DNA from: Tannerella sp.
GTDB taxonomy: Bacteria > Bacteroidota > Bacteroidia > Bacteroidales > Tannerellaceae
DNA length: 36,105 bases
Assembly: GCA_031270465.1 (NCBI GenBank)
Contig: JAISXP010000059.1
Coordinates: forward strand, 1-36,105
Reading direction: 5' to 3'
Shown: piece by piece, positions 16,129-36,105 of the stretch
Numbering within the stretch: the first letter of the stretch is position 1
How the letters are laid out: every line of letters begins with the position of its first letter
The notes under the pieces: model-generated
Told to the model about the DNA's origin: nothing
Seen by the model: only the letters and a program-made list of their open reading frames with translations
Databases searched by the model: none
Position numbers and translations under genes: made by a program

Positions 16129-17526
16129 ATGTCTGACGCTGAAAACGGAAACAAACTGTATCTCTACGCCATCACGCTCGTAGCCGTTCTGGGAGGCCTG
16201 CTCTTCGGATACGATACGGCCGTCATATCGGGAGCCGAGAAGGGACTGGAGGTATTCTTCTCGCGGGCAACCGATTTCGAGTACAACAAACTGCTGCACG
16301 GCCTGGCGTCGTCGAGCGCGCTGATAGGATGCGTGCTTGGAGGCGCCATTTCGGGCATGCTCGCCTCCCGCCTGGGACGGCGAAACTCGTTGCGCCTCGC
16401 CGCCGTGCTGTTCTTCCTCTCGGCACTGGGGTCGTACCGTCCCGAATTTCTCTTCTTCGAGAAGGGCGTGCCCACGTTCGAACTGTTCGTCGCCTTCAAC
16501 CTCTACCGCATACTGGGAGGTATCGGCGTCGGACTGGCATCGGCCGTATGCCCGATGTACATCGCCGAAATTGCACCGTCGAACATCCGCGGCACGCTGG
16601 TTTCATGGAACCAGTTTGCCATCATCTTCGGTATGCTGGTCGTGTATTTCGTCAACTACCTCATACTTGGCGGTCACGACGCGGCCGACGAATGGTCTGC
16701 CACGGTCGGCTGGCGGCAAATGTTCGTTTCCGAAGCCTGGCCTGCCGCCCTGTTCGGGATTCTCCTCTTCTTTGTTCCCAGGACGCCGCGCTATCTCGTC
16801 CTGATACAGCAGGAAACGAAAGCGCTCGACATATTGACAAGAATCAACGGAGCATCGAAGGCCGGCGAAATACTCTCGGAAATCAGAGACACGCTGAAGG
16901 AGAAAACCGAAAAGATATTCACCTACGGCGTCACTGTGATTATAATCGGCATCCTGCTGTCCGTCTTCCAGCAGGCCATCGGAATCAATGCCGTACTCTA
17001 CTACGCTCCCCGCATCTTCGAAAGCGCAGGTGCCGAAGGTGGCGGCATGATGCAAACCGTCATCATGGGCGTGGTGAACATCACCTTCACGCTGGTAGCC
17101 ATTTTCACTGTCGACCGTTTCGGGCGCAAGCCGCTGCTTATCATCGGCTCCATCGGAATGGCCGCCGGCGCCTTTGCAGTAGCCGTTTCCGACCATCTGG
17201 GGTTGCAGGGACTCATTCCGGTTCTCTCCGTAATCATTTATGCCGCCTTCTTCATGATGTCGTGGGGGCCGATATGCTGGGTGCTGATCTCCGAAATATT
17301 TCCGAACACCATCCGCGGCCAGGCCATAGCCATTGCCGTCGCCTTCCAGTGGATATTCAACTACATCGTATCATCCACTTTCCCGGCGCTCTACGTCTTC
17401 AGCCCGATGGTAGCCTACGGACTTTACGGCACCATCTGCCTCGGCGCAGCCTTCTTCGTCTGGAAATGGGTGCCCGAGACGAAAGGCAAGACGCTGGAAG
17501 ACATGACGCGCCTCTGGCGTAAATAA
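16129..17526 (+). CDS. xylE: D-xylose:H+ symporter (MFS sugar porter)
   Basis: The 465-residue protein has about twelve membrane helices and the sugar-porter signatures: LLFGYDTAVISGAEKGLE in helix 1, SRLGRRNSLRLA in the helix 2-3 loop, RILGGIGVGLASAVCPMYIAE in helix 4-5, QQAIGINAVLYYAP in helix 7, DRFGRKPLLIIG in helix 8-9 and WVPETKGKTLEDM at the end. The QQ-x-IN-x-YY motif and the context make xylose the likely substrate. It completes the pathway: uptake (XylE), isomerisation (XylA), phosphorylation (XylB). Confidence 0.95.
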   Translation: MSDAENGNKLYLYAITLVAVLGGLLFGYDTAVISGAEKGLEVFFSRATDFEYNKLLHGLASSSALIGCVLGGAISGMLASRLGRRNSLRLAAVLFFLSALGSYRPEFLFFEKGVPTFELFVAFNLYRILGGIGVGLASAVCPMYIAEIAPSNIRGTLVSWNQFAIIFGMLVVYFVNYLILGGHDAADEWSATVGWRQMFVSEAWPAALFGILLFFVPRTPRYLVLIQQETKALDILTRINGASKAGEILSEIRDTLKEKTEKIFTYGVTVIIIGILLSVFQQAIGINAVLYYAPRIFESAGAEGGGMMQTVIMGVVNITFTLVAIFTVDRFGRKPLLIIGSIGMAAGAFAVAVSDHLGLQGLIPVLSVIIYAAFFMMSWGPICWVLISEIFPNTIRGQAIAIAVAFQWIFNYIVSSTFPALYVFSPMVAYGLYGTICLGAAFFVWKWVPETKGKTLEDMTRLWRK

Positions 17527-17547
17527 CGTCTCCGGATCGCCGTGTCC

Positions 17548-17607
17548 CTCCGTGTCTCTCCGTGTAAGAAACAATTACACGGAGTTGCACGGAGAAGAGA
17601 CACGGAG
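17548..17607. repeat. Imperfect inverted repeat of the TCTCCGTGTAA family (copy 1)
   Basis: The left arm reads CTCCGTGTCTCTCCGTGTAA (17548-17567 region); the right arm contains TTACACGGAG (17575-17584), an 11-base insertion, then AGAGACACGGAG (17596-17607). The arms can pair with a bulge. A second copy with the same core lies at 35270-35318. Both are intergenic, so this looks like a dispersed palindromic element. It sits between convergent xylE and the TerC gene and could also stop transcription from both sides. Confidence 0.75.
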
Positions 17608-17695
17608 AACCGCAGAGAAACCGGCTTTTCCGCCGGGCGAGGCATCCCCGACAGGATGCTCCCTGAATCGTTGAATTTTTGAATCTTTGAACTGC

Positions 17696-17734: not shown

Positions 17735-18694
17735 CTACTTCTTCGTCTTCATCAACGAGATGACAACCCCCAGCGCCAAAATGGAAAATGTGAAAACGAG
17801 CGATTGCTCCGACCTGATTTCAAGCCCGAAATGAGGCGAAAAGATCTTGCAGCCGATAAAGACAAGGATGATTGCCAGGGCATGCTTCAGGTACACAAAG
17901 CGATTGACGGCGGCGGCCAGCAGAAAGTACAGCGAACGCAATCCCAGTATGGCAAAAATATTGCTGGTGTAAATCACGAACGTGTCCTGCGTAATGAGAA
18001 ATATGGCGGGAATGCTGTCGATGGCAAAAATCACATCCATGATTTCTATCAGCAACAGAGCCAGAAACAGGGGAGTGATATAATTCTTTTCATCTTTCTT
18101 TACAAAAAAGTGCTCGCCGGACAGGTCGGGCGTGATCCGGAACCTTTGTGACAGAAAACGGAACAGTTTGCCCTCTTTAATATCGGATTTTTCTTTTTCG
18201 GGAAACAGGAATTTGATTCCCGTGAATATCAGAAATATCGAAAACAGGTACAAAATCCAGTGAAACCTGGCAACCAGTGCCGCCCCGATAAATATCATGA
18301 CCGCACGCATGACGACCGCGCCCATAATACCCCAGAACAGTACGCCGTGCTGGTATCTGACCGGTATGGTCAGAGACGTGAATATAAGCGAAATCACGAA
18401 AATGTTATCCATCGAAAGGCTAAGCTCGACCAGATAGCCGGTATAAAACAGCATACCGGTCTCGCTGCCTTTTTCGTAAATGACAAACAGCCCGAAAAGA
18501 AGCGCTATCAAAACATAGCTGGCGCAGATTATGAGGATTTTCCTGATTTTCTGCTCTTCGTCCTTCCTGTGAAAGACGAACAGATCCAGATAAAGCAAAA
18601 CGGAGACAACCGTTACGAAAATCACCCACATCCATCCCTGAGGTAAAACCGGATGTCCGGCTTCGAGCAGCGTTACAGTTTCCATACAAGTCAT
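17735..18694 (-). CDS. TerC/Alx-family integral membrane protein
   Basis: The 319-residue protein has about eight or nine membrane helices and the two family motifs: VELSLSMDNIFVISLIF in the third helix region and IEIMDVIFAIDSIPAIFLITQD later, both carrying acidic residues inside the membrane. Alx of E. coli and related proteins export or balance manganese; some TerC proteins assist metal loading of exported enzymes. The ATG at 18694 overlaps the DUF6599 stop by ATGA; an open extension upstream would run deep into that gene and was rejected. Cotranscription with an exported FeS oxidoreductase is notable. Substrate is inferred only. Confidence 0.9.
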   Translation of the reverse strand: MTCMETVTLLEAGHPVLPQGWMWVIFVTVVSVLLYLDLFVFHRKDEEQKIRKILIICASYVLIALLFGLFVIYEKGSETGMLFYTGYLVELSLSMDNIFVISLIFTSLTIPVRYQHGVLFWGIMGAVVMRAVMIFIGAALVARFHWILYLFSIFLIFTGIKFLFPEKEKSDIKEGKLFRFLSQRFRITPDLSGEHFFVKKDEKNYITPLFLALLLIEIMDVIFAIDSIPAIFLITQDTFVIYTSNIFAILGLRSLYFLLAAAVNRFVYLKHALAIILVFIGCKIFSPHFGLEIRSEQSLVFTFSILALGVVISLMKTKK

Positions 18695-19560
18695 TTCAGT
18701 TTTTCCGTTATTTCTTTCATCCATTCGGCGGCATCCTGCACCGTCTCGCCGTTTTCGTTGTATGCCCCGACGATGTACTGTCCTTTCCATACGGCAGGGA
18801 TATCGCCATTGTACCGGTCTTTGACGACAATGCTGCCTTCGTCCGTGACAGCCTGTTGCCCGGTAAATTCAGCGTAACGGTCCAATACCTTGCGGGCGCC
18901 GTCTTTCGTTTTGCCGTCGACGACAAAAAGCAGGAACGTCTGTCCTTCGTGCCCGTATCTTGCCGAATAGACGGACTTCAAAAACTCGTGGCCGATAAAA
19001 CCTTTCGTCGTGTAGGATTCCGACCATGCGCGTTTCCCTTTCGCCGGAAACAGTTTTGCCACGGGCGGATATGTGGCGCCGGCATCGATCCTGTCCGACA
19101 GTCGCCGGCCAATCGCACGGAGAGTTTCTTCCGCATCGCCGGCGCTGCTGCTCCACATCTTCACGTAAATACATCCTGCGAAGAAGAACAGGTTTTGAGC
19201 ATCGCCCTGTGCCTCGCCTCCGATGTCGAAATGCGCCAGTTCGTCCGAACGTTCCGATGCGTACATGCCGAAAGCATCTTCGGGCGTGGCATGGCGATAC
19301 GCCTGTATTGTGATGTAATCATCGCCTTTCCTGTACTCCAGAGAAGTCATTTCCTCAAAATTGTTCTCTATGAACAGGGGCGCCGCGCCGTTGATGCGGT
19401 CGAAAAGATTGTCGGGGTTGAAGACTTCCGTTTCGTCCGACAGCGTCCATCCCGGGAAATCGGCCAGCCACGATTTCAACTGTCCGGGCGTCTGGGCGAC
19501 GAGCAGTTGAACGGACATCAGCACAAGAATGGCAAAGATTGTCTGTCTGAAATATTTCAT
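18691..19560 (-). CDS. Exported DUF6599 family protein
   Basis: The 289-residue protein begins with a signal peptide (MKYFRQTIFAILVLMSVQLLVAQ) and continues with WLADFPGWTLSDETEVFNPDNLFDRINGAAPLF, the start of the DUF6599 domain, then TIQAYRHATPEDAFGMYASER. Proteins of this family occur in Bacteroidota and other anaerobes, often beside Tat-exported oxidoreductases; their function is not known to me. An alternative start four codons upstream (19572) is possible. It lies 33 bases after the aldo/keto reductase gene and overlaps the TerC start, so it is the middle gene of a three-gene operon. Confidence 0.8.
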   Translation of the reverse strand: MKYFRQTIFAILVLMSVQLLVAQTPGQLKSWLADFPGWTLSDETEVFNPDNLFDRINGAAPLFIENNFEEMTSLEYRKGDDYITIQAYRHATPEDAFGMYASERSDELAHFDIGGEAQGDAQNLFFFAGCIYVKMWSSSAGDAEETLRAIGRRLSDRIDAGATYPPVAKLFPAKGKRAWSESYTTKGFIGHEFLKSVYSARYGHEGQTFLLFVVDGKTKDGARKVLDRYAEFTGQQAVTDEGSIVVKDRYNGDIPAVWKGQYIVGAYNENGETVQDAAEWMKEITEKLK

Positions 19561-22772: not shown

Positions 22773-25700
22773 TTATTCGTTATTCATTAACAACTGTTCC
22801 ATTTCTTCCTTTGTCAGTTTATTTTTCTCGAGGAGGCGTTCGACGAGCCGGTCGATTGCAGGTTTCTGTTCACGAAGGGTTTCGATGGCCAGGGCAAGTT
22901 CGCGGCGGATGATGGCGGAGATGCGTTCGGCGATTTTGCCGGCGAGAGGGCCGCGGGTAGCTTCGTCGTCGGAGAGGAAGACGGGGCCGGTTTCGTCGTC
23001 CATGCCGTAGGAGCAGATCATGGCGCGGGCGATGCGGGTAGCGCTTTGCAGGTCGCCTGATGCGCCGCTCGAGATGCCGTCGTCGTCGCCGTAGTAGACG
23101 ATTTCGGCCGCCCGTCCGCCGAGTGCGGTACGGATGCGGGCGAGGAGTTCGTCGCGCGTCTTGAGCGGAGTGTCTTCGTCGGCCGCATGTTCCATATATC
23201 CGCCGTGGCTGCCGCGGGCAACGATGGTGAGATAGGCGGGCGTACGTCCGGCGAGGAAACAGAGGCAGGCGTGTCCCGCTTCGTGCCGTGCGACGCGCTG
23301 GAGATAATCCTTTCCCCAGTCACGCTTTTCACCGTGCCGGTTGAGTTCGAAGGCCTCTTCGAGCGTGTCGTCGTCGAGTGGCTGTTCCTTTTTAGCAGCC
23401 ATGCGGAAGGCGAGTTCGAGCACCGTTTCCAGACCGGCAAGGCTGTATCCGGCAGAGCGTTCGGCCAGGCGCTGAATCATTGATTCGGCGACTTTGTTCG
23501 GTCGCTTGCCGAGCATGAGTGTCAGGTATCGCGCCCGGTCGTCTCTGTCGGGCAGGTCTACGAGGATTTTGCGGTCGAAGCGGCGAGCGAGGGCGGGATC
23601 GATCGTGCCGGTGGCGCGCCGTCCTTCCTCGATGTCGAAATTGGTGGCGGCGAGCACGAAAACAGGGCGCTTGAGATCGACGGTGAATCCGTCCATTTCG
23701 GTGAGCAGTGCGTTGAGCGCCATTTCTTCGCCGTGTCCGGTGTGTCCTGCACCGCGCGTGCGGCCTATGGCGTCGATTTCGTCGATGAAGATGATGGCCG
23801 GGGCGTACCGGCGTGCACGGGCGAAAAGATTGCGTACGGCTTCGGGGCCGCTGCCCTGCCATTTGGTTACGAAGCTGCTTGCGGCGGCGGGGATAAAGGC
23901 GACGTCGGACTCGCCGGCCATGGCGCGCGCAAGCATCGTCTTGCCGGTGCCCGGCGGGCCGTAGAGCAGTACCCCTTTGGGTAGCCGGTAGCCCGATGCA
24001 GCAGTTTTTTTCGGATCCTTGAGGAAATTGATGAAGTATTGCAGTTCGCTTTTTGCGTCGGCGGCGCCGATGACGTCGTCGAAGCGGGCGTCGGGCTTTT
24101 CGATTTCATTGAGCACATCACGGCTGTCGTCGGCCGCAACGATGCGGCGGAGTGAAAATTCGCGCAGGCGGATGATTGCCTGCGTCCTGTCGGGCGAGAG
24201 AATGGGCGCGGTTTCGAACGAGAGCGCCTTGCGCTGCATGGCCAGGGCTGCGGCAGCGCCCTGCAGGCAGGCTTGCGCGCAGATGTTTTTGATTTCTTCG
24301 GCAATAATGCCACTGTCGCCCTCCGACAGCGCAAGTTTGCCTCTGGCTCCGGCGCGGACGAAAGCTGTAAGCAATTCTTCGTCGATACCAAATCTATCCG
24401 ATTCAAGCAGATAGACAGGCATGTCGGGCAGGCGTTCGCGCAGGGTCTTGAAGAAGTTGCGCGAGGTTTTCAGCGACGATGCGCCGGGAGGTATGTAATT
24501 GAATGCGCCAATGGTAGCGAGCGGATTCGGCAGGGCTACGCCGGGTTCGGCCACGGTAGCCAGCGGGTCGAGTTTCTTTCGCGTCTCTCCCGACAGTTCC
24601 ACGAGCACGAGATGAATGTCTTTTTCGCTCAACAGTTTCAGAGCTTCGTCCGTCTCGGTGGAATGATGAATTTCGACATCCGGCAATGCGTCGCGCAATT
24701 TTTCGAGGCACGCTTCGTCGCCGAAGAAAAGGATTTCCGGCCGTTCCGGAGTTGAGAACAGCGGTTTTACGTCGTCCGGCAGGCTATCGGTTTCCACGCC
24801 GAAACGAATGGTCTGCATCCGTTCGAGTGCCTGTTCGAGGCCTGTATCCCAGAGGCGGAAAAGTTTGAAGAGTTCGTTTTTGAAAAACAGTTCAGTGCGT
24901 GCACAAAGAGTACGCGCATCGACCTGCCCTCCTTCGGCAAAAAGGAGTACGGAGGCAAGCAGTTCACCGCCTTCTATCCTGATGCCGTACTGTTTTTCAA
25001 AGAGCGCGCAAAGGCGTTGAAATTCGGTTGAACTGATTTTCTCGAGATGATGCGCCTGCAGATGATTGAACATCATGGGATAGCCGGTAGCCAGTCGCGA
25101 GCAGATGGCAGCAGGGAAATAAGGTTTGCCCGTCTGCGGATGAGTATCGGTTTCGAGGGCGCCGAGTATGGCTTGACGCGACAGTCCGGCGGCGCCGGAG
25201 CGGAAATCTCCCTCGTAGAACTGGCGTCCGGCGTTGGTCGTAAAGATGATGACGGTGTCGCGGAAGGAGATGTTCTCGTCGAGAAAATCGTCGTGCAGGA
25301 TGCCGGCATCCAGAATTTGCAGGAAGAGTTGGATAGTGTTCAGATGCGCCTTTTCGATTTCGTCGAAGAGGAGTATGCTGTGCGGATTTTTCTTGACGAA
25401 GCCGGTGAGCAAGCCGGGTTTGGCATCCTTGTAGCTGGCGTTGAATCCTATCAGGTTGGAATGTGCCTGGTGGTCGGCGAAGTTACTCATGTCGAATCGC
25501 CTGAAGGGGGTGCCGAGCACTTCGGCCGCCTGTTCGGCGAGGAAGGTTTTCCCTACGCCCGGAGGTCCGGCGAAGACGAAGATGGCGCGCGGGCGGCGGC
25601 GTTTTTCGTCGGCAGCAGCCAGCACTTCGGCATTGAAAATGCCTTCGGCAAAGGCATGGACGGCGTGGTCTTGCCCGTGTATCTTGTCGAGCAGAGCGTA

Positions 25701-26234
25701 TCGCATCCTGCGGATACGTCCGGTCAGCGAGGGCAGGAAGGAGACGCCTTCGATCTGGGGTGTGGCCGGCTTTTCGGGTGTTGGCTTTTCGGGTGTTGGC
25801 TTTTCGGCCGGTTTTCCGAGAAGGAGAATGGTTTCGAGCATGGGTGTCGGCTCTTCGAGCAAGGCGGACAGCAAGTGTGCGGCCGACAGGGTTTCGCCTG
25901 CGGCTTTCGCGACAGCTTTCGCGTGCAGACCTTCGACCAGCGTTTTTCCGTTGCCCGAAGGCTTTTCGCCGGAGAGAATCCTGCGCAGTTGCGAGCGTAC
26001 CTTGCGCGAATCTATCCCGGCCGCTTTCAGCAGGGTTACCACCTGGCGGATGTCGGCATCGGTCTGTTCGCGATAGCGGGAGTTGGGCGCGATGTCGTCG
26101 GCAGTGATTTCCGACAGTTTGAGCAGTCCCAGAAACAGATGTTCGGGATGCAGTTCCATGGTCAGGGCGACGGCTTCCATCGTGGCGCGTATCCTGACGA
26201 ATGACAGGGATCTTGTTTCTTCAAGTTTTTCCAT
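22773..26234 (-). CDS. Clp N-domain/AAA protein fused to a soluble FtsH-like AAA zinc protease
   Basis: The 1153-residue protein joins two machines. Residues 1-140 look like a Clp N-terminal repeat domain; 141-160 are a Pro-rich linker (KPTPEKPTPEKP); 175-470 are an AAA module like the ClpB second ring, with Walker A GPPGVGKT (223-230) and Walker B ILLFDEIE (287-294). Residues about 498-635 resemble a receiver fold (EILFFGDEACLEKL, HLVLVEL) without clear phosphorylation residues. Residues 715-945 are an FtsH-type AAA: Walker A GPPGTGKT (759-766), Walker B IIFIDEIDA (814-822), pore loop KWQG where FtsH usually has FVG. The M41 peptidase follows with HEAGH (984-988) and probable third zinc ligand Asp1061. 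FtsH's membrane helices are absent. As last gene of the Hsp70 operon it probably degrades or unfolds clients handed over by the chaperones. Confidence 0.88.
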   Translation of the reverse strand: MEKLEETRSLSFVRIRATMEAVALTMELHPEHLFLGLLKLSEITADDIAPNSRYREQTDADIRQVVTLLKAAGIDSRKVRSQLRRILSGEKPSGNGKTLVEGLHAKAVAKAAGETLSAAHLLSALLEEPTPMLETILLLGKPAEKPTPEKPTPEKPATPQIEGVSFLPSLTGRIRRMRYALLDKIHGQDHAVHAFAEGIFNAEVLAAADEKRRRPRAIFVFAGPPGVGKTFLAEQAAEVLGTPFRRFDMSNFADHQAHSNLIGFNASYKDAKPGLLTGFVKKNPHSILLFDEIEKAHLNTIQLFLQILDAGILHDDFLDENISFRDTVIIFTTNAGRQFYEGDFRSGAAGLSRQAILGALETDTHPQTGKPYFPAAICSRLATGYPMMFNHLQAHHLEKISSTEFQRLCALFEKQYGIRIEGGELLASVLLFAEGGQVDARTLCARTELFFKNELFKLFRLWDTGLEQALERMQTIRFGVETDSLPDDVKPLFSTPERPEILFFGDEACLEKLRDALPDVEIHHSTETDEALKLLSEKDIHLVLVELSGETRKKLDPLATVAEPGVALPNPLATIGAFNYIPPGASSLKTSRNFFKTLRERLPDMPVYLLESDRFGIDEELLTAFVRAGARGKLALSEGDSGIIAEEIKNICAQACLQGAAAALAMQRKALSFETAPILSPDRTQAIIRLREFSLRRIVAADDSRDVLNEIEKPDARFDDVIGAADAKSELQYFINFLKDPKKTAASGYRLPKGVLLYGPPGTGKTMLARAMAGESDVAFIPAAASSFVTKWQGSGPEAVRNLFARARRYAPAIIFIDEIDAIGRTRGAGHTGHGEEMALNALLTEMDGFTVDLKRPVFVLAATNFDIEEGRRATGTIDPALARRFDRKILVDLPDRDDRARYLTLMLGKRPNKVAESMIQRLAERSAGYSLAGLETVLELAFRMAAKKEQPLDDDTLEEAFELNRHGEKRDWGKDYLQRVARHEAGHACLCFLAGRTPAYLTIVARGSHGGYMEHAADEDTPLKTRDELLARIRTALGGRAAEIVYYGDDDGISSGASGDLQSATRIARAMICSYGMDDETGPVFLSDDEATRGPLAGKIAERISAIIRRELALAIETLREQKPAIDRLVERLLEKNKLTKEEMEQLLMNNE
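25771..25800. repeat. Two tandem 15-base units in the linker of the Clp-FtsH gene
   Basis: TTTTCGGGTGTTGGC occurs twice in tandem (25771-25785, 25786-25800), with a partial third unit after it. It encodes the PTPEK repeats of the Pro-rich linker between the Clp N-domain and the first AAA module. Copy number may vary between strains. Confidence 0.8.
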
Positions 26235-26259
26235 GTTTTATTTATATTTTTGTTTTTAT

Positions 26260-28905
26260 TTAATGAACGGTACGGTACATTTCTAAAACCAGTCCGAATA
26301 ATGCATGAACAATTTCCATTGTAGACGGAATCCTGCCCAAAGGAATTGCTTCAGCAATCAATGATTTGCCGCGTTCGATCAGCAGTTTTGCCTGTTCTCT
26401 GTCTTTCCATCTATAAGAATCAAAATTTTCATTAAACATTATTACATACTGTTCGCCACCTGTTGGCGTCATTTCAAGCACAAACTTCTGTTCGACGATT
26501 TTATAGGTAACTTCCTTTGTCTTTCTAATATTTTTCTCGCGACTGATTGTTTCTTTATTCCCGGGAAAATCATTGCATGTTGCTTCTGCTGCAGCCAGAT
26601 ACTTTTCATCATATCCGGGCATTCTGTTGATTCCTTTGCTTTTGATTATATATATCATCGTGTCCAGTTCGTAAAAGGCCTCCGTCATTTCCTTTTCTGC
26701 TTTCCGGTATCTCATCTGTGCTTTGACAGGGTACAATTCGAACAGTTGCCTGCGGAGGTTGTTGTGAATTTCCAGTCTTTTGAAGAGGTCGCTTTCCCCG
26801 GCTTTCAAACTTTTTTCGAGTTCGGAAAGTCGTTCGCTGACTTTGGCCGCGGTTTGCCTGTCTGCTTCCGGGATTTCGCCGGTAGCATTTATTTCATGTA
26901 TGTCCTGTCTGGCTGCCGAGATTTTTTTTAAAATATCTTCTTCCGAAGGAACTTCGGCCTGCTTGATTTCAATGTCCAGTTCTTTGGTATAATCCAGTAA
27001 CGGGAAAAAAGCTTTGAAGTGCATGGTTTGCGCCTTGTCTACCTTTATGGTAATCTCCACATCGCTGTTTTGGGGTAATGTATACGGAATGTCTTCGCCG
27101 GTTATGATCACTTCGCGGATCAGGTCGTTCAATTCTGGGTCAGCGCCTACGGCATTACAGTCTCCCTGATAGATGCCGATACAAAACCAGTCATCTTTTT
27201 CTCCTTTACGTATTTTACACGTGGTCTTCAGACCTTTGACGACACCCGTAGCCGGCAGATTTCTGTTTTTTTCCAGTCCCTTGACGGGAAAGAAACCAAG
27301 GCCATCCTTGTTTTCGAAATACTTGGCAATGCCGACATGATAAGATAAAACCTGCGTTTTGGGAAAGTCGATACTTTGAATGATATTGAATTGATCGGGT
27401 TCGCAGTCCAGCCGGTTTCCTTTTTCGTCGAATACCTGTATCTCGAACGAATTGGAACGATTTTCAAGCAGAAGGACTTCAATGAGGGTTGCTTTCCTGT
27501 CGCTGATGCGCTTCAATCCGCTTGACCAGGCTTCGTCGACACGCCTAATGCCGACAAAGATCTCGTTTGGAAAGCGTTCGGTTGATTTTTCTTTCAACGC
27601 CTTGATGGAAACCAGTGCATTCTTTTCCATGCCTGTCGCTTCATATTTGACGTCCAGTCGGAGTTTATCTGCGTAAGGTGTCGAACCGCCATCGCCGCCT
27701 CCCTGCTGTACGGTTTTGGGGTCTTCAGCAACAGCGGGGATATCCACATCCACAGTAGAAGCGTAGATCGCAGCTCCCTGTGCTACGACTGTCATCGGAT
27801 CTTTGGACGTGTCTACGTGCTCGGTGATTTGTTCGCGCAACATGCACCGCAGGATGGGCGAATGGGTGGGTCCGCCCACCGGAATAAGCGCGTCGAGGTC
27901 GGCGCCCTGCAGGTTGTTGCGCTTCAGCAGTCCTTTCGCAATGTCGATGGCTTTCTGAAAGATGGGCGAGAGGACGCGCTCCATGTCTTTCTGCGTGACG
28001 GTTACGTCTACTTCGGGAGCTTCGCCTTCTTCGTCCTCAAAGGGCAGGTCGCCCAGATCGGTAAGGATATTGTGCTTGTCCCTGAACGACATTTGAATCT
28101 TGGCTTCTTCGGCCAGCCGCTTGACGCCGTTTCGCAAAATCTCTCTCCTGTCGGGGTCGTTAAGAATACCTTCGATGACAAAATTTTTCTGGAGGTACGG
28201 CAGGATAATCTGGTCGACGATGGCTTCGTCGAGGTTTTTGCCGCCGAGCCAGTTATCTCCGTCGGTATCTTTGACGGACAGGATTCCTTCTTCGGCTTTT
28301 ACGAGTGTGGCGTCGAAGGTGCCGTCGCCAAAGTCGAATACGAGCCAGTATCCGTCTTTTTTTTCGGCGTCCAGGCCGTAAGCAGTTGCCGCAGCAACCG
28401 GTTCCTGAAGCAAAACGACCTGCTTGAATCCGGCCAGTTTGGCTGCCTTGATGGTTGCTTCGTTTTGTGGACTGAGGAATTTGGCGGGCACGGTGATTAC
28501 TATCGACGAGAGATTTTCGTCCAGTACCAGTGATTTCAGTTTTTTCAGTACTTCGGCCGACAGTTCTTCCGAAGGAATTTCCCTGTTCATGTGGCTGCTT
28601 CGATAGGTATGTGTGGTACCCATTGTGCGTTTAAATTCGATATATGAATTGGTTTCGCCCTTTTTGAAATCCTTCATCGCCCTCATTACATTCAAATCCT
28701 TCATCGCCCTCGTTGTGTCGTTTTTCATCACATTCATTGCCGGGTCGCCGACCTGCACGACCTGTTTTTTGTTGAAATATACGCAGGAAGGCACGATATC
28801 CTTCAGTATGTCGGATTTTATGATTCTGGGGACGCCGTTTTCCATCCGGGCGATGGCTGAATTGGTTGTGCCCAGGTCGATGCCGTAGTCAATTTTCGTT
28901 CTCAT
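26260..28905 (-). CDS. Hsp70-like chaperone A, with altered phosphate-2 loop
   Basis: The 881-residue protein has a complete Hsp70 nucleotide-binding domain: IDYGIDLGTTNSAIAR at the start, Lys92 in IEFKRTMG (equivalent to the catalytic Lys of DnaK), and VGGPTHSPILR plus DPMTVVAQGAA for adenosine binding. The phosphate-2 motif reads DFGDGTFD (191-198) instead of DxGGGTFD; the Asp194 codon GAC differs from GGC in paralogue B by one base. The interdomain region is a Gly-rich loop then DKLRLDVKYEA, unlike the DnaK linker. The beta domain ends near ELDIEIKQ (about residue 650), and the last 230 helical residues are unrelated to those of paralogue B. It is longer than DnaK (about 640). It may be impaired in ATP use and act as a partner of B. 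Confidence 0.92.
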   Translation of the reverse strand: MRTKIDYGIDLGTTNSAIARMENGVPRIIKSDILKDIVPSCVYFNKKQVVQVGDPAMNVMKNDTTRAMKDLNVMRAMKDFKKGETNSYIEFKRTMGTTHTYRSSHMNREIPSEELSAEVLKKLKSLVLDENLSSIVITVPAKFLSPQNEATIKAAKLAGFKQVVLLQEPVAAATAYGLDAEKKDGYWLVFDFGDGTFDATLVKAEEGILSVKDTDGDNWLGGKNLDEAIVDQIILPYLQKNFVIEGILNDPDRREILRNGVKRLAEEAKIQMSFRDKHNILTDLGDLPFEDEEGEAPEVDVTVTQKDMERVLSPIFQKAIDIAKGLLKRNNLQGADLDALIPVGGPTHSPILRCMLREQITEHVDTSKDPMTVVAQGAAIYASTVDVDIPAVAEDPKTVQQGGGDGGSTPYADKLRLDVKYEATGMEKNALVSIKALKEKSTERFPNEIFVGIRRVDEAWSSGLKRISDRKATLIEVLLLENRSNSFEIQVFDEKGNRLDCEPDQFNIIQSIDFPKTQVLSYHVGIAKYFENKDGLGFFPVKGLEKNRNLPATGVVKGLKTTCKIRKGEKDDWFCIGIYQGDCNAVGADPELNDLIREVIITGEDIPYTLPQNSDVEITIKVDKAQTMHFKAFFPLLDYTKELDIEIKQAEVPSEEDILKKISAARQDIHEINATGEIPEADRQTAAKVSERLSELEKSLKAGESDLFKRLEIHNNLRRQLFELYPVKAQMRYRKAEKEMTEAFYELDTMIYIIKSKGINRMPGYDEKYLAAAEATCNDFPGNKETISREKNIRKTKEVTYKIVEQKFVLEMTPTGGEQYVIMFNENFDSYRWKDREQAKLLIERGKSLIAEAIPLGRIPSTMEIVHALFGLVLEMYRTVH
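28667..28711. repeat. 27-base tandem duplication inside Hsp70-A
   Basis: AAATCCTTCATCGCCCTC occurs at 28667-28684 and again at 28694-28711, 27 bases apart. It adds the peptide block RAMKDLNVMRAMKD near residues 66-79 of Hsp70-A; paralogue B lacks it (it reads RILKIFLKG there). The reading frame is kept. Confidence 0.8.
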
Positions 28906-28921
28906 CTTTTCATTCGTTTGG

Positions 28922-28965
28922 GGAATATCCCCTTCTCCGCCTTGCGGGGGAGAAGGGGGATATCC
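28922..28965. repeat. Strong hairpin between the two Hsp70 genes
   Basis: GGAATATCCCCTTCTCCGC (from 28922) pairs with GCGGGGGAGAAGGGGGATATCC (to 28965) around a short CTTGC loop, with one or two bulges. It lies in the 83-base gap between Hsp70-B and Hsp70-A. No T-run follows on the minus strand, so it is more likely an mRNA-stability or attenuation structure than a full terminator. Confidence 0.65.
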
Positions 28966-28988
28966 GTAACAAGTGACTGTTATGAATA

Positions 28989-31565
28989 CTATTTCAAAGT
29001 GCCTCCACCGGGTGTTTCATCGTCAGGAAGCATTTGATGCAATGCCAAGACAATAGCCCGAACTTCGGAAGTTCTACCCAAAGCGACCAGTTGATTGCCT
29101 TTTTCAATCAACTGTTTTGCCATTGCAGGATTAGACCAGTGGAGTGAGTGGAAGTTTTGGGCATAGTGATTCAGGAACTGCACAAACATCAGGCCTCCGG
29201 TTACTGTATCGACAAGTTGAAAGTGCAATCCTTTCATTTCCTGCGTCAATTTCTTTGCTTCCTTCACATCTTTAGCAGGGATGATTTGCCTCATCTTTCT
29301 GTTAAAGTCATCCACCATGGCTTTCAATTTGCCCATATCCAGGTTATTTGCGCTGTCGCCAATTTTTTCTATCAACTCATTTAATTCAAGACTGGCGTCT
29401 TTCATTTCCCTTTCTGCTTCCGGCCATTTATCCTCCGAACTGCCGGCGGCACCTAATTTGAGCATTTGCTTGCGGAGACTGTTTTGAATGTTCATTTTCC
29501 CGTCGGCGCTGCCTTTTTCGTTTTCCAGTTTTCCTTCGAGTCTGTCAAGTTCTTCGACGACTTCGGCTGCTCCTGCCTTTATTGCCTTCGCTTTTGCATC
29601 GGCGATTTGTTTTGAAAGGTCTGTTACCGAAGGCATCGCGGTTTGCTTGATTTCAATGTCCAGTTCTTCGGCATAATCCAGTGACGGGAAATAAGCTTTG
29701 AAGTGCATGGATTGCGATTCGTCTATCTTGATGGTAATATCCACGTTGCTGTTTTCCGGCAACAAATTGGGAATGGTATCGCCGGTTATGATTACTTCGC
29801 AGATCAGGTCGTTCAGCGCCGGGTCGGTGCCTTTGGCATTGTAGTCGCCCTGATAGATTGGAATGCGTATCCTGTCCTGCGAATTGCGGGGTCTGATTTT
29901 TTTTCGGGTTTTGAGGCCGTTTACCACACCCGTAGCCGGTAAGGTCTTGCTTTTTTCCAATCCTTTGACGGGAAAGAACAGGTCGGCTTCCTCGTCTTCG
30001 AAATACTTGGCAATGCCGACATGATAAGATAAAACCTGCATTTTGGTCACGCCGCCGATACCTTGAATGATATTGAACTGATCGGGTTCGCAGCTCAGCC
30101 TGTTTCCTTCTTCGTCGAATACCTGTATATCGAACGAGTTGGAACGATTTTCAAGCAGAAGGACTTCTACAAGGGATGCTTTCCTGTCGCTGATGCGCTT
30201 CAAACCGCTTGACCAGGCTTCGTCGGCACGCTTGATGTCGACAAAGATCTCGTTTGGAAAGTGTCCGGTTGATTTTTCTCTCAGCGCCTTGATGGAAACC
30301 AGTTCATTCTTTTCCACGCTTGTTGCTTCATATTTGACGTCCAGTCGGAGTTTATCCGCGTGAGGTGTCGAACCGCTATCGCCGCCTCCCTGCTGTCCGG
30401 TTTTGGGGTCTTCAGCAACAGCGGGGATATCCACATCCACAGTAGAAGCGTAGAGCGCAGCTCCCTGTGCTACGACTGTCATCGGATCTTTGGACGTGTC
30501 TACGTGCTCGGTGATTTGTTCGCGCAACATGCGCCGCAGGATGGGCGAATGGGTGGGTCCGCCCACCGGAATAAGCGCGTCGAGGTCGGCGCCCCGCAGG
30601 TTGTTGCGCTTCAGCAGTCCTTTCGCAATGTCGATGGCTTTCTGAAAGATGGGCGAGAGGACGCGCTCCATGTCTTTCTGCGTGACGGTTACGTCTACTT
30701 CGGGAGTTTCGCCGTATTCGTCCTCAAAGGGCAGGTCGCCCAGATCGGTAAGGATATTGTGCGCGTCCTTGAACGACATTTGAATCTTGGCTTCTTCGGC
30801 CAGCCGCTTGACGCCGTTTCGCAAAATCTCTCTCCTGTCGGGGTCGTTAAGAATACCCTCGATGGCAAAATTTTTCTGGAGGTGCGGCAGGATAATCTGG
30901 TCGACGATGGCTTCGTCGAGGTTTTTGCCGCCGAGCCAGTTATCTCCGTCGGTATCTTTGACGGACAGGATTCCTTCTTCGGCTTTTACGAGTGCGGCGT
31001 CGAAGGTGCCGCCGCCAAAGTCGAATACGAGCCAGTATCCGTCTTTTTTTTCGGCATCCAGGCCGTAAGCAGTTGCCGCAGCAACCGGTTCCTGAAGCAA
31101 AACGACCTGCTTGAATCCGGCCAGTTTGGCTGCCTGGATGGTTGCTTCGTTTTGTGGACTGAGGAATTTGGCGGGCACGGTGATTACTATCGACGAGAGG
31201 TTTTCGTCCAGTACCAGTGATTTCAGTTTTTTCAGTACTTCGGCCGACAGTTCTTCCGAAGGAAATTCCCTGTTCATGTACCTGCTCCGATAGGTATGTG
31301 TGGTACCCATTGTGCGTTTAAATTCGATATATGTATTGGTTTCGCCCTTTAGGAAAATCTTCAATATCCTCGTTATGTCGTTTTTCATCGCATTCACTGC
31401 CGGGTCGCCGACCAGCACGGCCTGTTTTTTGTTGAAATGTACGCAGGAAGGCACGGTATCCTTCAGCGTGTCGGATTTTATGATTCTGGGGACGCCTCTT
31501 TCCATCCGGGCGATGGCTGAATTGGTTGTGCCCAGGTCGATGCCGTAGTCAATTTTAATTCTCAT
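28989..31565 (-). CDS. Hsp70-like chaperone B
   Basis: The 858-residue protein is the tandem paralogue of Hsp70-A, nearly identical over the nucleotide-binding domain. All ATP motifs are intact: IDYGIDLGTTNSAIAR, Lys83 in IEFKRTMG, the phosphate-2 loop DFGGGTFD (182-189), VGGPTHSPILRRM and DPMTVVAQGAA. The following region (DKLRLDVKYEATSVEKNELVS onward) replaces a canonical DnaK linker and beta-sandwich, and clear similarity to A stops after ELDIEIKQ. The C-terminal part is a helical region with two coiled-coil-like stretches and a Gly-rich end. The start overlaps the stop of the GrpE-like gene (ATGA), indicating coupled translation. It is probably the active ATPase of the pair. Confidence 0.93.
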   Translation of the reverse strand: MRIKIDYGIDLGTTNSAIARMERGVPRIIKSDTLKDTVPSCVHFNKKQAVLVGDPAVNAMKNDITRILKIFLKGETNTYIEFKRTMGTTHTYRSRYMNREFPSEELSAEVLKKLKSLVLDENLSSIVITVPAKFLSPQNEATIQAAKLAGFKQVVLLQEPVAAATAYGLDAEKKDGYWLVFDFGGGTFDAALVKAEEGILSVKDTDGDNWLGGKNLDEAIVDQIILPHLQKNFAIEGILNDPDRREILRNGVKRLAEEAKIQMSFKDAHNILTDLGDLPFEDEYGETPEVDVTVTQKDMERVLSPIFQKAIDIAKGLLKRNNLRGADLDALIPVGGPTHSPILRRMLREQITEHVDTSKDPMTVVAQGAALYASTVDVDIPAVAEDPKTGQQGGGDSGSTPHADKLRLDVKYEATSVEKNELVSIKALREKSTGHFPNEIFVDIKRADEAWSSGLKRISDRKASLVEVLLLENRSNSFDIQVFDEEGNRLSCEPDQFNIIQGIGGVTKMQVLSYHVGIAKYFEDEEADLFFPVKGLEKSKTLPATGVVNGLKTRKKIRPRNSQDRIRIPIYQGDYNAKGTDPALNDLICEVIITGDTIPNLLPENSNVDITIKIDESQSMHFKAYFPSLDYAEELDIEIKQTAMPSVTDLSKQIADAKAKAIKAGAAEVVEELDRLEGKLENEKGSADGKMNIQNSLRKQMLKLGAAGSSEDKWPEAEREMKDASLELNELIEKIGDSANNLDMGKLKAMVDDFNRKMRQIIPAKDVKEAKKLTQEMKGLHFQLVDTVTGGLMFVQFLNHYAQNFHSLHWSNPAMAKQLIEKGNQLVALGRTSEVRAIVLALHQMLPDDETPGGGTLK

Positions 31566-32524
31566 GATTGTACTGTATTTGTAATATTATTGTTGTTAAT
31601 GGATGAATCCTGACTGTCGTCGTCCTGCGGACCTACGGATACTTCGATTTGTGCGGACTGAATCATTTTGCCGTTGTAGTTGACTTGCGGGACTATCACT
31701 TTCGTGATGACTTCGGCGCCGGCCTCGAGGTTCTCGTCGGGGATGGAGTTGACTACGGTTACTTTCATGCCTTCGTGGAATTCTTTTCCGAGCAGTTGGG
31801 GCACTTCGTATCCGTTGGCGGCAAGGTTGTCTTTCAATGTGCCTACCGAGCGTTTCAACTGTTTCAGGCCTTTGGTGCCTTCGCTCATCAGGCTGATGTT
31901 TCGTTCGATCACGTTGATTTCGCTTGCCACCTTCAGCGCCAGCGAATGGTCGATTTCGGGTTCGGGCGTATCCGATTCAACCGGTACCTGATTTTCCAGC
32001 TTTTTGACCAGAAGCTGTATTTCCCGGTCAAACTCGTTCACCAGTTTTTCTTCGATTTCGTCTTTCGTTTTGCCCACCTGTTCGATGATGGCGGACTTGT
32101 CGGTTTTCTGCCGCCTGCTCAGGAACCAGTAGACCAGCACGGAGAGGATGATGGCCATGAGGAGGACAATCACGACGTAGAGGGTGGTGTTGCTTACCGA
32201 GCGGCCGACTTCCTGAAACCGCTGGTTGGCGGAGGCTTCGGTGGTCGAGATTTTTACGCCGAGCTGGTCTGCCGTTTCGCGGATGGCCTGGCTGTTGCTT
32301 TGTGTCGACTGCCGGAGTGTCTCGATGGTTTCGCCGGCGGCCTTGAGCCGGGTCTGCAGGGCGGTTACTTCGCCGCGCAGTTTTCGCGTTTCCGTACGGA
32401 GCGTCTGCAGTTCGCTTTTTACGGTCTGCAACTCCTTTTTCAGTTCATCCGTTGCCGGATTGCCGTTCTGTGCCGACGCTGCTGCGCCTGCCAGAAGGAA
32501 TAGAGCCAATACAATTTTTTTCAT
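31562..32524 (-). CDS. Single-pass coiled-coil membrane protein with GrpE-like C-terminal domain
   Basis: The 320-residue protein has a signal peptide (MKKIVLALFLLAGAAASAQ), a coiled coil over about 24-75 (LQTVKSELQTLRTETRKLRGE), a membrane helix at 114-135 (LYVVIVLLMAIILSVLVYWFL) and a cytoplasmic-side part at 136-320. Within it, residues 195-250 form helices and 245-298 resemble the GrpE wing: LLGKEFHEGMKV matches the GrpE GxxFDPxxHEAM region, and AGAEVITKVIVPQ then NGKMIQSAQIEVSVG matches TVVEVLQKGY...RxLRPAMVKV. It would thus be a nucleotide-exchange factor anchored in the inner membrane. The Hsp70 genes follow with an ATGA overlap, which strengthens the call. The resemblance is by eye and needs a profile comparison. 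Confidence 0.65.
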   Translation of the reverse strand: MKKIVLALFLLAGAAASAQNGNPATDELKKELQTVKSELQTLRTETRKLRGEVTALQTRLKAAGETIETLRQSTQSNSQAIRETADQLGVKISTTEASANQRFQEVGRSVSNTTLYVVIVLLMAIILSVLVYWFLSRRQKTDKSAIIEQVGKTKDEIEEKLVNEFDREIQLLVKKLENQVPVESDTPEPEIDHSLALKVASEINVIERNISLMSEGTKGLKQLKRSVGTLKDNLAANGYEVPQLLGKEFHEGMKVTVVNSIPDENLEAGAEVITKVIVPQVNYNGKMIQSAQIEVSVGPQDDDSQDSSINNNNITNTVQS

Positions 32525-32572
32525 CGTTCTTTTATTTTAAATGTGTGTTATAAATTTGTTTTGAGATCTTTT

Positions 32573-34996
32573 TCATCTTTCTTTCATTGTCAACATGCCG
32601 AGGGCCGACAGCAGCCAGAAGAATCCGTACACGATGAGCGTGCCCGATACCCACCTGGGCATCGGCAGCCAGTCGAAATACCAGATCAGGAACAGCGCCA
32701 GTTCGGGCAGAAAGAGTATCAGATGCTGCGAGTGCCAGAAGCGCGACATCTTCGAGCGGTTCAGCCGCCGCGTGTTGCACAGCAGCATCATCCGTATGTT
32801 GTCGTATGCCCAGAAGAATCCGTAGATGCTGAATATGGCGTGCCATACGGAGTTGACGGAGAGATTGCCCAGGTCGATGATGCAGACGGCGATGAGCGGC
32901 AGGAGCAGCGAGCGGAAGAAATAGGTCCAGTACATCACTCCGGGCGAGCCGTTGAGGCGAAACATGGTCGATGCCAGGTGGCCTCCGGGATTCATGGCTT
33001 TCAGTTGCTGGATTTTGAACATTGCATAAAACAGTATGCCGAAGGCAAGCACCCAGAAGCTTATGCTGTCGAGAAGCGAGAGGGCTGTTTTTTCCTGCAC
33101 GATCATGTAGGTATTTTTATATATATAGAAAAGCCACATGTTCGCAAGGAAAGTGATGAATACGCCGAAGGCGGGCATTCGCCGCTTCACGAGGCTGGCG
33201 ATGCCGTAGGATGTGCAGAAGAACCAGAACATGACGAGGGAGTACGGCAGGCTGCGGACAAATTTGCCGACGGCGGCGGGGTCGGACACGACATGCCACC
33301 GGTATTCGAGCAGCGCGAACAGGGCGACGGGTATGATCGTGGTCCAGAAGAAGTATTTCACGGCAGCCCATGCCGTACCGCCGCGAAACGTCAGTCCGTT
33401 GATTGTCGTACGGCGCTTTGGCGCGGGCTGTCTTTTTCCGGCCGGCTTTGGTGCGGGGGGTTTTTGGCCGGAAGCTTTTTGTTCGAAAACCGTTTTCGCG
33501 GGTGTCCTCTGTACGGGTGCCCTCTGTACGGGCTGTTCACTGTTTCCGCTCTGCTTTCCGCCCGACAGCGCTTCCCTGTTTTTTTCCAGTCGGGCGCGAA
33601 CTTCGGAGTTGAGTTCCATTTTTTCGATTTCTGCCATCAGCGTGTGCGCCTCGTTTATCTTCTTTATAAGGACTGTCACGTTCGGACGGTTTTCAATCAT
33701 GCTGTTCACGTCGGCAATCGTCATGTCCAGCGCCTTGTCTGCAATGAGGGAGCTTAGTGTCCGGTAATGCCCTCCGGCGCCCGAACTGCCGCCCATGTTC
33801 GCCAGCGTTTTTCTGCTGTCTTCGAATCTTTTCCTGAGCGCGCTCCCGACGACGAGCGACTGTCCCTTGAGGAGGAGGCTTTCGGCGACATCTTTTTTCG
33901 ATTTGCCCGTCGCGGGCGAGTTGTCGTCAGCGTTTTTCAGCATTTTGAGGAGCGGCTTTGTTTCGTTCAGCAGTTCTTGTGCGTCTTCTACGGTTTGGTT
34001 TCTTTCTTTTTTCAGCATCTGTGCGAGCATGGCCAGCGCCATCATTGTTTCGAGGTTTTCCTGCTGGCCTTCGCTGTCTGCCTTGCTGTTGTTGTAGTAG
34101 TCGATGGAGCACAGGAGGATTTCTTCGGCGACGCTGTCGGTGGCCGACGTGTATTTGAGGTCGTTGGCGCCGGTGAGGTTTTTCAGCGTCGCGAGGTCGC
34201 CCGACGTGTCGTCGTAGAGTTTGCTGCCGATGCTGTCGGCTCTGGCGGGATTATCCTTTCGTTTCCGTGCGGCGTCTTCTGCCTTGCGTTCGATTTCGGC
34301 AGCAAATCCTTTGGCAAATTCTTCCATGAAGTCGCTTTTGGCGGCAAAGCTGAGCGTCGACAGCGCTTTTATCGCTCTGGCCGTGGTGATGTTTCGTTTG
34401 TTTGCGCTCTCGATGTCTTTCATGAGCGTGCGCAAGAAGGAGAGTTCGAGTTCGGCTGCCGTCACTCTGAAGGTTTTGTCGGTTGTCCGTGTGACGAAGT
34501 CGCGGAGGCAGTCGCTTTCGAGGAATTTGATTTTGAGCGCAAGCGCCTGTTCGAAAGCGGCGACGGCGCCCGACTTCATCTGCTGGCTGCGGCAGAGGAG
34601 CAGAGTGGAGAGGTTGTGGAAGGCGGAACTGTTGCGCGGCGTGACCGTGCCGGAGGCGGTGAGTTTCGTCCATATTTCGGCGGCGTAGTCGGGGTCGTTG
34701 TCTGCCAGGGCGTCGAAGGCAGGCTCGTCCGTGATGTCGTTGCCGGTATAGAACCAGAAGAGAGCGGCATTCATGCGGTCGCTGTCGAGGTCGAGGCGCG
34801 AGGCGGCTTCGCTTACCGCGGTGTCGGTGCGCGAGAGTGTGCCGAGCGCCGGGAAGGCACAGTCTTCTCCCCGTGGCGGCTCCTGACCTGCTTCCAGGTA
34901 CATTAGCAGCCGGCTTATCTTCGCATTGCGTTCTCTTGCGGTTGCCCCGGCAAGCAGACCGATTACGCGGTACGGGTTGTTCAGAATGCTTTTCAT
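32573..34996 (-). CDS. J-like N-terminal domain fused to a multi-pass membrane region
   Basis: The 807-residue protein starts NNPYRVIGLLAGATARERNAKISRLL, like helix I-II of J-domains (NPYxVLGL...A...E), but the HPD motif needed to stimulate Hsp70 is absent. LSRTDTAVSEAASRLDLDSDRMNAALFWFYTG follows, a block I recall in Bacteroidota hypothetical or DnaJ-like proteins beside Hsp70 genes. Residues 100-475 are helical, perhaps TPR-like. A Pro/Lys/Gln-rich linker (485-530) with PVQRAPVQRTP leads to about eight membrane helices (546 to the end). As first gene of the Hsp70 operon it is probably a membrane-bound recruiter of the Hsp70s. The J-domain relation is tentative. Confidence 0.6.
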   Translation of the reverse strand: MKSILNNPYRVIGLLAGATARERNAKISRLLMYLEAGQEPPRGEDCAFPALGTLSRTDTAVSEAASRLDLDSDRMNAALFWFYTGNDITDEPAFDALADNDPDYAAEIWTKLTASGTVTPRNSSAFHNLSTLLLCRSQQMKSGAVAAFEQALALKIKFLESDCLRDFVTRTTDKTFRVTAAELELSFLRTLMKDIESANKRNITTARAIKALSTLSFAAKSDFMEEFAKGFAAEIERKAEDAARKRKDNPARADSIGSKLYDDTSGDLATLKNLTGANDLKYTSATDSVAEEILLCSIDYYNNSKADSEGQQENLETMMALAMLAQMLKKERNQTVEDAQELLNETKPLLKMLKNADDNSPATGKSKKDVAESLLLKGQSLVVGSALRKRFEDSRKTLANMGGSSGAGGHYRTLSSLIADKALDMTIADVNSMIENRPNVTVLIKKINEAHTLMAEIEKMELNSEVRARLEKNREALSGGKQSGNSEQPVQRAPVQRTPAKTVFEQKASGQKPPAPKPAGKRQPAPKRRTTINGLTFRGGTAWAAVKYFFWTTIIPVALFALLEYRWHVVSDPAAVGKFVRSLPYSLVMFWFFCTSYGIASLVKRRMPAFGVFITFLANMWLFYIYKNTYMIVQEKTALSLLDSISFWVLAFGILFYAMFKIQQLKAMNPGGHLASTMFRLNGSPGVMYWTYFFRSLLLPLIAVCIIDLGNLSVNSVWHAIFSIYGFFWAYDNIRMMLLCNTRRLNRSKMSRFWHSQHLILFLPELALFLIWYFDWLPMPRWVSGTLIVYGFFWLLSALGMLTMKER

Positions 34997-35188: not shown

Positions 35189-35269
35189 TAATTTTTTCTT
35201 AATGTCCGGACGGGGATGTTTTTTATTTCGTCGCGGAGATATGGGGGGACTGAATGACTGTAATATGTT

Positions 35270-35318
35270 CTGTGTCTCTCCGTGTAACTTTTTTTTACAC
35301 GGAGAGAGACACACAGAG
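35270..35318. repeat. Inverted repeat of the TCTCCGTGTAA family (copy 2)
   Basis: CTGTGTCTCTCCGTGTAA (35270-35287) pairs with TTACACGGAGAGAGACACACAG (to about 35317) around a T-rich loop of seven or eight bases. The core TCTCTCCGTGTAA is shared with the copy at 17548-17607. It begins just after the 3' end of the ankyrin gene. Confidence 0.8.
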
Positions 35319-35325
35319 GGAAATG

Positions 35326-36105
35326 CTATGATGTGCCGTGGTACGCAAGGAGTATTTTTACCGTTTCGGTATGGCCATTCCTGGCCGCTTTTTTCAGTGC
35401 GGTTTCGCCATATTCGTCACTGATATTTACATCGGCGCCATGCGCAAGAAGGACCTTTACCGTTTCGGTATGGCCATTCTCTGACGCCTTCATCAGTGCA
35501 GTATCGCCATCGTAAATATAATCTGTGCCGGTACTCTCGTTGATATAATCGCCATAGTGTTCGTTCACGGCGTTTATATCCGCACCGTGCGCAAGGAGAA
35601 CTTTTACTGTTTCGGTATGGCCGTCTTCGGCTGCCACTATCAGCGGGGTATTGTTATACCATTCACTGTCTCTTGCATTCACATCGACGCCGTGTGCAAG
35701 GAGAGCTTTTACGGTTTCGACGAAGCCTTCTTTGGCTGCCAGTATCAGCGCTCTTTCGTCTCCTTCCGAGTTCATGTTTTCGACGTTTACATCAACGCCC
35801 TGCGCAAGGAGAAATTCGATCATATCGCCGCTGAGTACATCGTCCGCATCGTATATTTCCTTTATATCATTTATATTGGCGCCGTGTGCAAGGAGCAATT
35901 TCATCATTTCGACACAGTTTCCACAGTCTTCACAGTATGCATACATCAGTGCGGTGTTGCCCTCTTCGTCACGTGCATTTATATCGGCGCCATGCTCAAG
36001 GAGTATCTTTACCGTTTCGAGCCTCCAGGAACAGGATGCATACATCAGTGCGGTTTCGCCATATTCGTCACTGATATTTACATCGGCGCCATGCTCAAGG
36101 AGTAT
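35326..36105 (-). CDS. Ankyrin-repeat protein, 5' end outside the window
   Basis: The frame is open from the right edge to the stop at 35326, giving at least 259 residues. At least six ankyrin repeats are visible, each with TALMxAxxxGHTETVKxLLAHGADVN or a variant. Two repeats carry longer inserts (around KEIYDADDVLSGDM and INESTGTDYIYDGD). The last repeat breaks off as ILLAYHGTS, so the C-terminus is either natural or was cut by the adjacent palindromic repeat. An internal Met at 36043-36045 is not the true start because repeats continue before it. Ankyrin repeats bind other proteins; no enzymatic domain is visible in the part present. It is divergently placed? No: it reads in the same direction as, and upstream of, the Hsp70 operon. 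Confidence 0.85.
   Translation of the reverse strand: MLLEHGADVNISDEYGETALMYASCSWRLETVKILLEHGADINARDEEGNTALMYAYCEDCGNCVEMMKLLLAHGANINDIKEIYDADDVLSGDMIEFLLAQGVDVNVENMNSEGDERALILAAKEGFVETVKALLAHGVDVNARDSEWYNNTPLIVAAEDGHTETVKVLLAHGADINAVNEHYGDYINESTGTDYIYDGDTALMKASENGHTETVKVLLAHGADVNISDEYGETALKKAARNGHTETVKILLAYHGTS
35394..35443. repeat. 50-base exact repeat inside the ankyrin gene (unit 1)
   Basis: This 50-base stretch, encoding the GADVNISDEYGETAL block, recurs exactly at 36045-36094, 651 bases away. Base-level identity in repeats whose other units differ suggests recent copying or gene conversion. Confidence 0.85.
36045..36094. repeat. 50-base exact repeat inside the ankyrin gene (unit 2)
   Basis: Exact copy of 35394-35443, at the right edge of the window. 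Recombination between the two would remove about six repeats in frame. Confidence 0.85.

Follow-up and report, generated by a model that had tools for sequence, protein, structure and literature searches.

Intergenic palindromes of a Tannerella genome and the inverted arrays that frame GxxExxY nuclease genes

The two intergenic palindromes of this 36,105-nucleotide stretch of Tannerella sp. DNA (hereafter the window) are probably gene-less, non-autonomous members of a mobile superfamily of inverted arrays, the gene-bearing form of which carries a GxxExxY nuclease. Each arm of such an element would consist of two to four 7-nt units (here CACRGAG/CTCYGTG) at intervals of roughly one helical turn, with two arms facing each other as inverted repeats. 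In the gene-bearing form, a single gene encoding a GxxExxY PD-(D/E)XK nuclease would lie between the arms.

The palindromes and the genes beside them are positioned in the window as follows:

16129–17526, + strand: sugar/MFS transporter gene, ending 13–14 bp ahead of copy 1
17540–17607, no strand: copy 1, an imperfect palindrome, intergenic between convergent genes; units CTCCGTG at 17548 and 17558, centre GTAA-loop-TTAC, units CACGGAG at 17578, 17588, and 17601
17611–17617, + strand: CGCAGAG, an additional 3' unit of copy 1 that follows a spacer AAC and fits the unit pattern
17735–18790, − strand: TerC-family gene, convergent with the transporter gene, so that copy 1 lies between both 3' ends
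35268–35318, no strand: copy 2, a palindrome; TTCTGTG at 35268, CTCCGTG at 35278, a T-run in the loop, CACGGAG at 35298, and CACAGAG at 35312
35326–36045, − strand: ankyrin-repeat protein gene, with copy 2 just past its 3' end

The core TCTCCGTGTAA is found exactly at 17557–17567 (+), 35277–35287 (+), and 35295–35305 (−). If up to one mismatch is allowed, there are six matches in the window against 0.36 expected, a number that none of 100 shuffles attains. Folded as DNA, the copy 1 hairpin (17540–17605) has a free energy of −23.6 kcal/mol (z −8.7) and the copy 2 hairpin (approximately 35269–35317) one of −17.4 kcal/mol (z −7.0); in neither case do any of 200 shuffles equal the value. An earlier note on this DNA had proposed two related intergenic palindromes within 18 kb with a common core, and this is borne out, as both fold far better than shuffled sequence. 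The note was right to describe the element as a palindrome, but it underrated its extent and structure: the element is longer, with up to four units per arm. No Rfam family matches the window. A second dispersed repeat, GAATCGTTGAATTTTTGAATCTTTGAA, lies just past copy 1 (17659–17694), and many sites match it in this genome and in congeneric species. The window also contains an unusual gene cluster (22773–34996). One of its proteins, of 1153 aa, combines two AAA domains with a peptidase domain of the M41 (FtsH-like) type; two others, encoded in tandem and 881 and 858 aa long, are Hsp70-like, and another, of 807 aa, has no Pfam match.

The window is one contig (C171) of a 3.03-Mb draft genome (G000) that comprises 183 contigs at 91% completeness. 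The exact core has ten matches in this draft and the reversed control none; after two chance coding matches (L001 and L006) are dropped and the arms of copy 2 are counted once, these represent at least seven true palindromes. Two looser patterns, CTCYGTG-N3-CTCYGTG and CTYYGYG-NN-CTYYGYGGT, give 18 matches and 18 further matches, respectively, with none for their controls. A genome-wide count thus yields at least seven exact-core palindromes and related doublets rather than the window's two copies only, and the similarity among them goes beyond chance. The earlier note's suggestion of a genome-wide repeat family holds, with copies scattered through this genome, through those of several species of the genus, and far beyond.

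These palindromes are inverted arrays in which the 7-nt unit CACRGAG/CTCYGTG recurs every 10–11 bp, up to four times per arm; certain copies add outer arms of opposite polarity. Two layouts are observed. The first, that of the window hairpins, runs from CTCYGTG units through GTAA, a loop, and TTAC to CACRGAG units, while the second runs from AACCACRGAG... through a short centre to ...CTCYGTGGTT; both are joined in some copies (for example, L307). Variation between the arms of different copies takes the form of unit substitution and not of variation as a single RNA. At one locus of this genome (L405, C136:57080–57577), four 78-bp AACCACAGAG..CTCTGTGGTT doublets are arranged in tandem.

The earlier note had further suggested a family of the REP type moved by a tyrosine transposase. 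The palindromes are indeed intergenic and dispersed, and Y1 transposases exist in the genome, but a search of the draft for a REP-associated tyrosine transposase flanked by the CACRGAG motif found none. There are only two Y1_Tnp genes, and other palindromes flank both: L040 (contig C170) is surrounded by GTCCCGTAGGGAC palindromes and L041 (contig C6) by GGGCTTTAGCCC/GGCTTCAGCCGAC and related palindromes as well as by TGTCTAAAGGCAAC, with CACRGAG arrays absent from the flanks of either. With their own palindromes, these IS200-like genes appear to form the genuine REP/RAYT-like pairs of the genome. The window palindromes also lack the GTAG/CGTC head, having GTAA/TTAC or AACC/GGTT edges instead, and their arms are arrays of units, not a single 20–40 bp hairpin. 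Mobilisation as ordinary REP elements by a RAYT is consequently hard to credit.

In other genomes, the recurrent neighbour of the CACRGAG-type repeat is a gene for a GxxExxY PD-(D/E)XK nuclease. The assumption that repeats of this kind border GxxExxY genes was put to the test here. In relatives, arrays are found at the edges of the GxxExxY gene (L042, L066, and L071), and the inverted ends of short doublets are likewise found around GxxExxY genes of other genomes. A first sample, in which public genomes were scanned by protein alignment alone, gave 80 GxxExxY loci from many phyla, 74 of them with sufficient flanks. Both arms, of at least two units each, are present in the expected orientation at 28 of these 74 loci and in the reverse orientation at three, and 55 have at least one arm; by comparison, both arms are seen in none of 397 distal tile pairs used as a control. 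The median inverted-arm score is 36 within a locus, versus 20 between loci and 18 for distal sequence, and the units of the two arms of one locus agree at 93%, versus 79% between loci (0/2002 permutations). In a second sample, with loci found by the PF13366 profile, the corresponding medians are 32 and 17.5 (p 4e-10). Near-perfect inverted arms are exemplified by L158, L193, and L148. Four-helix-bundle (23S IVP, PF05635) genes, which are a comparable class of accessory gene, were considered as an alternative partner and rejected, as arrays of any kind are found at none of 30 such loci.

The general unit at GxxExxY loci is CRCRRAG, and the hosts comprise many bacterial phyla and an archaeon. 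Four-unit arms, 3-4-3 spacers, and TTA/TAA edges are common to the dispersed hairpins and to GxxExxY loci L211 and L372. The polarity of the window copies (CTCYGTG-loop-CACRGAG) is the reverse of that in most gene-bearing forms, and a form with the gene in the loop is rare (L386). The PF13366 profile has no match in the Tannerella draft itself, which is 91% complete.

The unit present at a locus follows the subfamily of its nuclease. With motifs that were set after part of the data had been seen, CRCRRAG arrays are found at 77 of 110 GPG-LLE loci versus none of 16 others (GxGFLE), and the RAT-type unit (CNCNRAT) at 10 of 16 GxGFLE loci versus 4 of 110 GPG-LLE loci. The same motifs were retested on 35 later loci, where the counts are 11/21 GPG-LLE loci versus 0/14 for CRCRRAG, and 2/21 versus 8/14 for the RAT type. 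Paralogues within one genome have differing units, each matching its nuclease subfamily, and genome-wide repeat content therefore cannot account for the split. Other GxxExxY subfamilies (L043–L064 and L411–L446) have other inverted units, of the ATCTGCG, TTCGTG, AATCCTG, CTATGTG, CACTAAG, and GAATTAA types, a diversity that suggests several repeat families of common origin.

This co-variation inside single genomes speaks against a different arrangement of the same parts, in which the arrays are primary dispersed repeats that spread by other means and serve as target sites for the GxxExxY gene, a guest inserted in or between them. Some GxxExxY genes do lie between two complete palindromes (L151 and L052), and array-rich genomes without GxxExxY exist, but at many loci (L148, L158, and L372) a single arm borders the gene on either side, within a few bases of it. 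We regard insertion of a guest gene as unlikely; even so, it would imply that the nuclease recognises the array.

The flanked genes belong to the GxxExxY family as defined by both TIGR04256 (E 3e-45) and PF13366 (PDDEXK_3; E 3e-36). A structure model of the protein (pLDDT 95) has lambda exonuclease and the Cas4 protein SSO0001 as its top matches among solved structures (probability 0.97–1.0, with E values of just 2.5e-3 or weaker), and D67, E77, K79, and Q91 are invariant across 53 GxxExxY sequences. The match to a Cas4 profile is weak (E 1.6e-5), and a search of solved structures by sequence gave no match. The model and these invariant residues accord with a PD-(D/E)XK fold and its active site. 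Nucleases of the lambda exonuclease/Cas4 type work on DNA ends and single strands, an activity that suits hairpin-forming arrays. The NCBIfam and Pfam entries for GxxExxY give no evident function or repeat partner.

Array ends are dispersed in 27 of the 30 genomes that have an arm-flanked GxxExxY gene, with approximately 930 matches versus four in the control. The dispersed copies examined are doublets of approximately 65–80 bp whose polarity is that of the gene arms. Across all loci, element lengths are bimodal: gene-less versions, which are present in many copies, span 57–113 bp, and gene-bearing versions 440–580 bp. The highest number, 251 array ends, was found in a Methanosarcinales draft (G069; L332–L351), many of them in three larger repeated contexts. 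In a phylum sample of 148 genomes, GxxExxY is present in 31 of 35 array-rich genomes versus 43 of 113 others (p 1.5e-7); collapsed to genera, the association has a p value of 0.0014, with phylogeny otherwise uncorrected. Among the 61 nearest genomes this correlation is not evident, as judged by eye, with GxxExxY in five of ten array-rich genomes. Several array-rich relatives (G020, G027, G029, and G042) either have no GxxExxY gene or have one without CACRGAG-type arms, and the arrays are patchily distributed across the genus.

Several observations are signs of mobility. In one relative (G010), a GxxExxY element splits the mutA-mutB operon, and a decayed version of it is present in another (G004); at the species level of this comparison, most relatives have the operon uninterrupted, and the space between mutA and mutB measures −4 to 34 nt in most of the other congeneric species. 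In three further loci (L214, L215, and L218, from other species of the genus) this gap contains a different inserted gene, read as NYN-domain-like. The dispersed hairpin elements of G042 are 97–100% identical over approximately 150 bp and differ in their outer flanks, and contigs terminate inside the repeat many times in G042 and G020 and once in the Tannerella draft. No target-site duplication above shuffled sequence was detected in 66 elements (mean 2.2 nt versus 2.0 nt shuffled). Exact empty sites at strain level were not found, and comparison with plasmids and phages gave eight distant plasmid matches and no phage match.

The G042 copies would also suit MITEs mobilised by a DDE transposase or one of another type, in which the hairpin is just contained or hitchhiking. 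In both G042 and G069 the hairpins lie inside longer conserved repeats that another transposase could move, and in the Tannerella genome CGCAAAG-type arrays (L406–L410) are embedded in a longer repeat whose ends resemble CAATTTGAATTGTCG and which may be a separate MITE. The window copies, however, have no longer conserved flank, the 66 elements show no target duplication, and such an origin would give no reason for GxxExxY to be linked to particular units across phyla; we consider it improbable.

Comparison at the site of copy 1 addresses a further reading, that of regulatory hairpins that stay in place under selection, as bidirectional terminators or as stabilisers of mRNA 3' ends. The location of copy 1 between convergent gene ends, and of copy 2 past a gene 3' end with a T-run in its loop, would fit such a role. 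A copy 1-type palindrome is nevertheless absent downstream of the transporter gene in its 18 detected relatives in the genus, one of which (G062) has separate CTCYGTG pieces there; as gene order downstream of the transporter is unconserved, the comparison shows just absence beside its relatives. This lack of conservation, the patchy distribution in the genus, the near-identical dispersed copies, the tandem copies, and the ends built of extended arrays all speak against selection in place, and we give stationary hairpins very little credence. Secondary co-option of a palindrome as a terminator is possible.

We therefore favour gene-less members of a GxxExxY-associated superfamily as the explanation of the window palindromes. 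The nuclease would recognise the array, probably as a hairpin or single-stranded DNA, as its lambda exonuclease/Cas4/RecB-like fold would suggest. It would then cut the ends of the element, moving or copying gene-less derivatives as well as its own element, with integration completed by host repair without target duplication. That the window copies themselves were moved by a GxxExxY nuclease is what we infer.

The pairing of arrays with GxxExxY has no description in the literature searched, a scope outside which subscription papers and preprints fell, and the motif strings tested are absent from it save in one PCR primer. Where that literature names GxxExxY, which is rarely and once in passing, repeats are not the main subject. 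The repeats that frame GxxExxY genes suggest an overlooked kind of mobile DNA. We put at about even the chance that GxxExxY nucleases represent a class of minimal mobile elements, widespread in bacteria and archaea and so far undescribed, with one nuclease gene between inverted arrays, a co-evolving unit, and crowds of gene-less palindromes moved in trans. If so, common dispersed repeats of the CTCTGTG, CTTTGCG, ATCTGCG, and TTCGTG types would share one origin. Such arrays abound in numerous genomes from the environment and the gut, and a single archaeal draft has as many as approximately 250 ends. A named but functionless nuclease family of many phyla would be given the role of recognising, and probably mobilising, its cognate repeats; a further class of nuclease would join the known means of moving palindromic repeats, and a direct biochemical test becomes possible.

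The proposed system would work like REPIN-RAYT, but with an unrelated nuclease. In both, short palindromes are scattered between genes, inverted copies of the repeat flank a small nuclease gene, gene-less doublets are far more numerous than gene-bearing copies, and target duplication is not evident (PMC2817692, PMC3116915). They differ in that the RAYT nuclease is of the Y1 HUH type, whereas that of GxxExxY is PD-(D/E)XK (lambda exonuclease/Cas4/RecB-like); in that REP elements have a single hairpin with a GTAG/CGTC head, in contrast to arrays of 7-nt units in 10–11 bp steps; and in that GxxExxY arrays span many bacterial phyla and an archaeon. The MITEs of DDE insertion sequences are similar in being short elements with the inverted ends of a longer gene-bearing form, and in their bimodal lengths, but here no DDE transposase lies between the ends and target-site duplication was not detected. 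The single-strand transposons of the IS200/IS605 type share subterminal hairpins and insertion without target duplication; unlike them, the CACRGAG motif has no associated Y1 transposase, and the gene found between its arms in other genomes is that of the GxxExxY nuclease.
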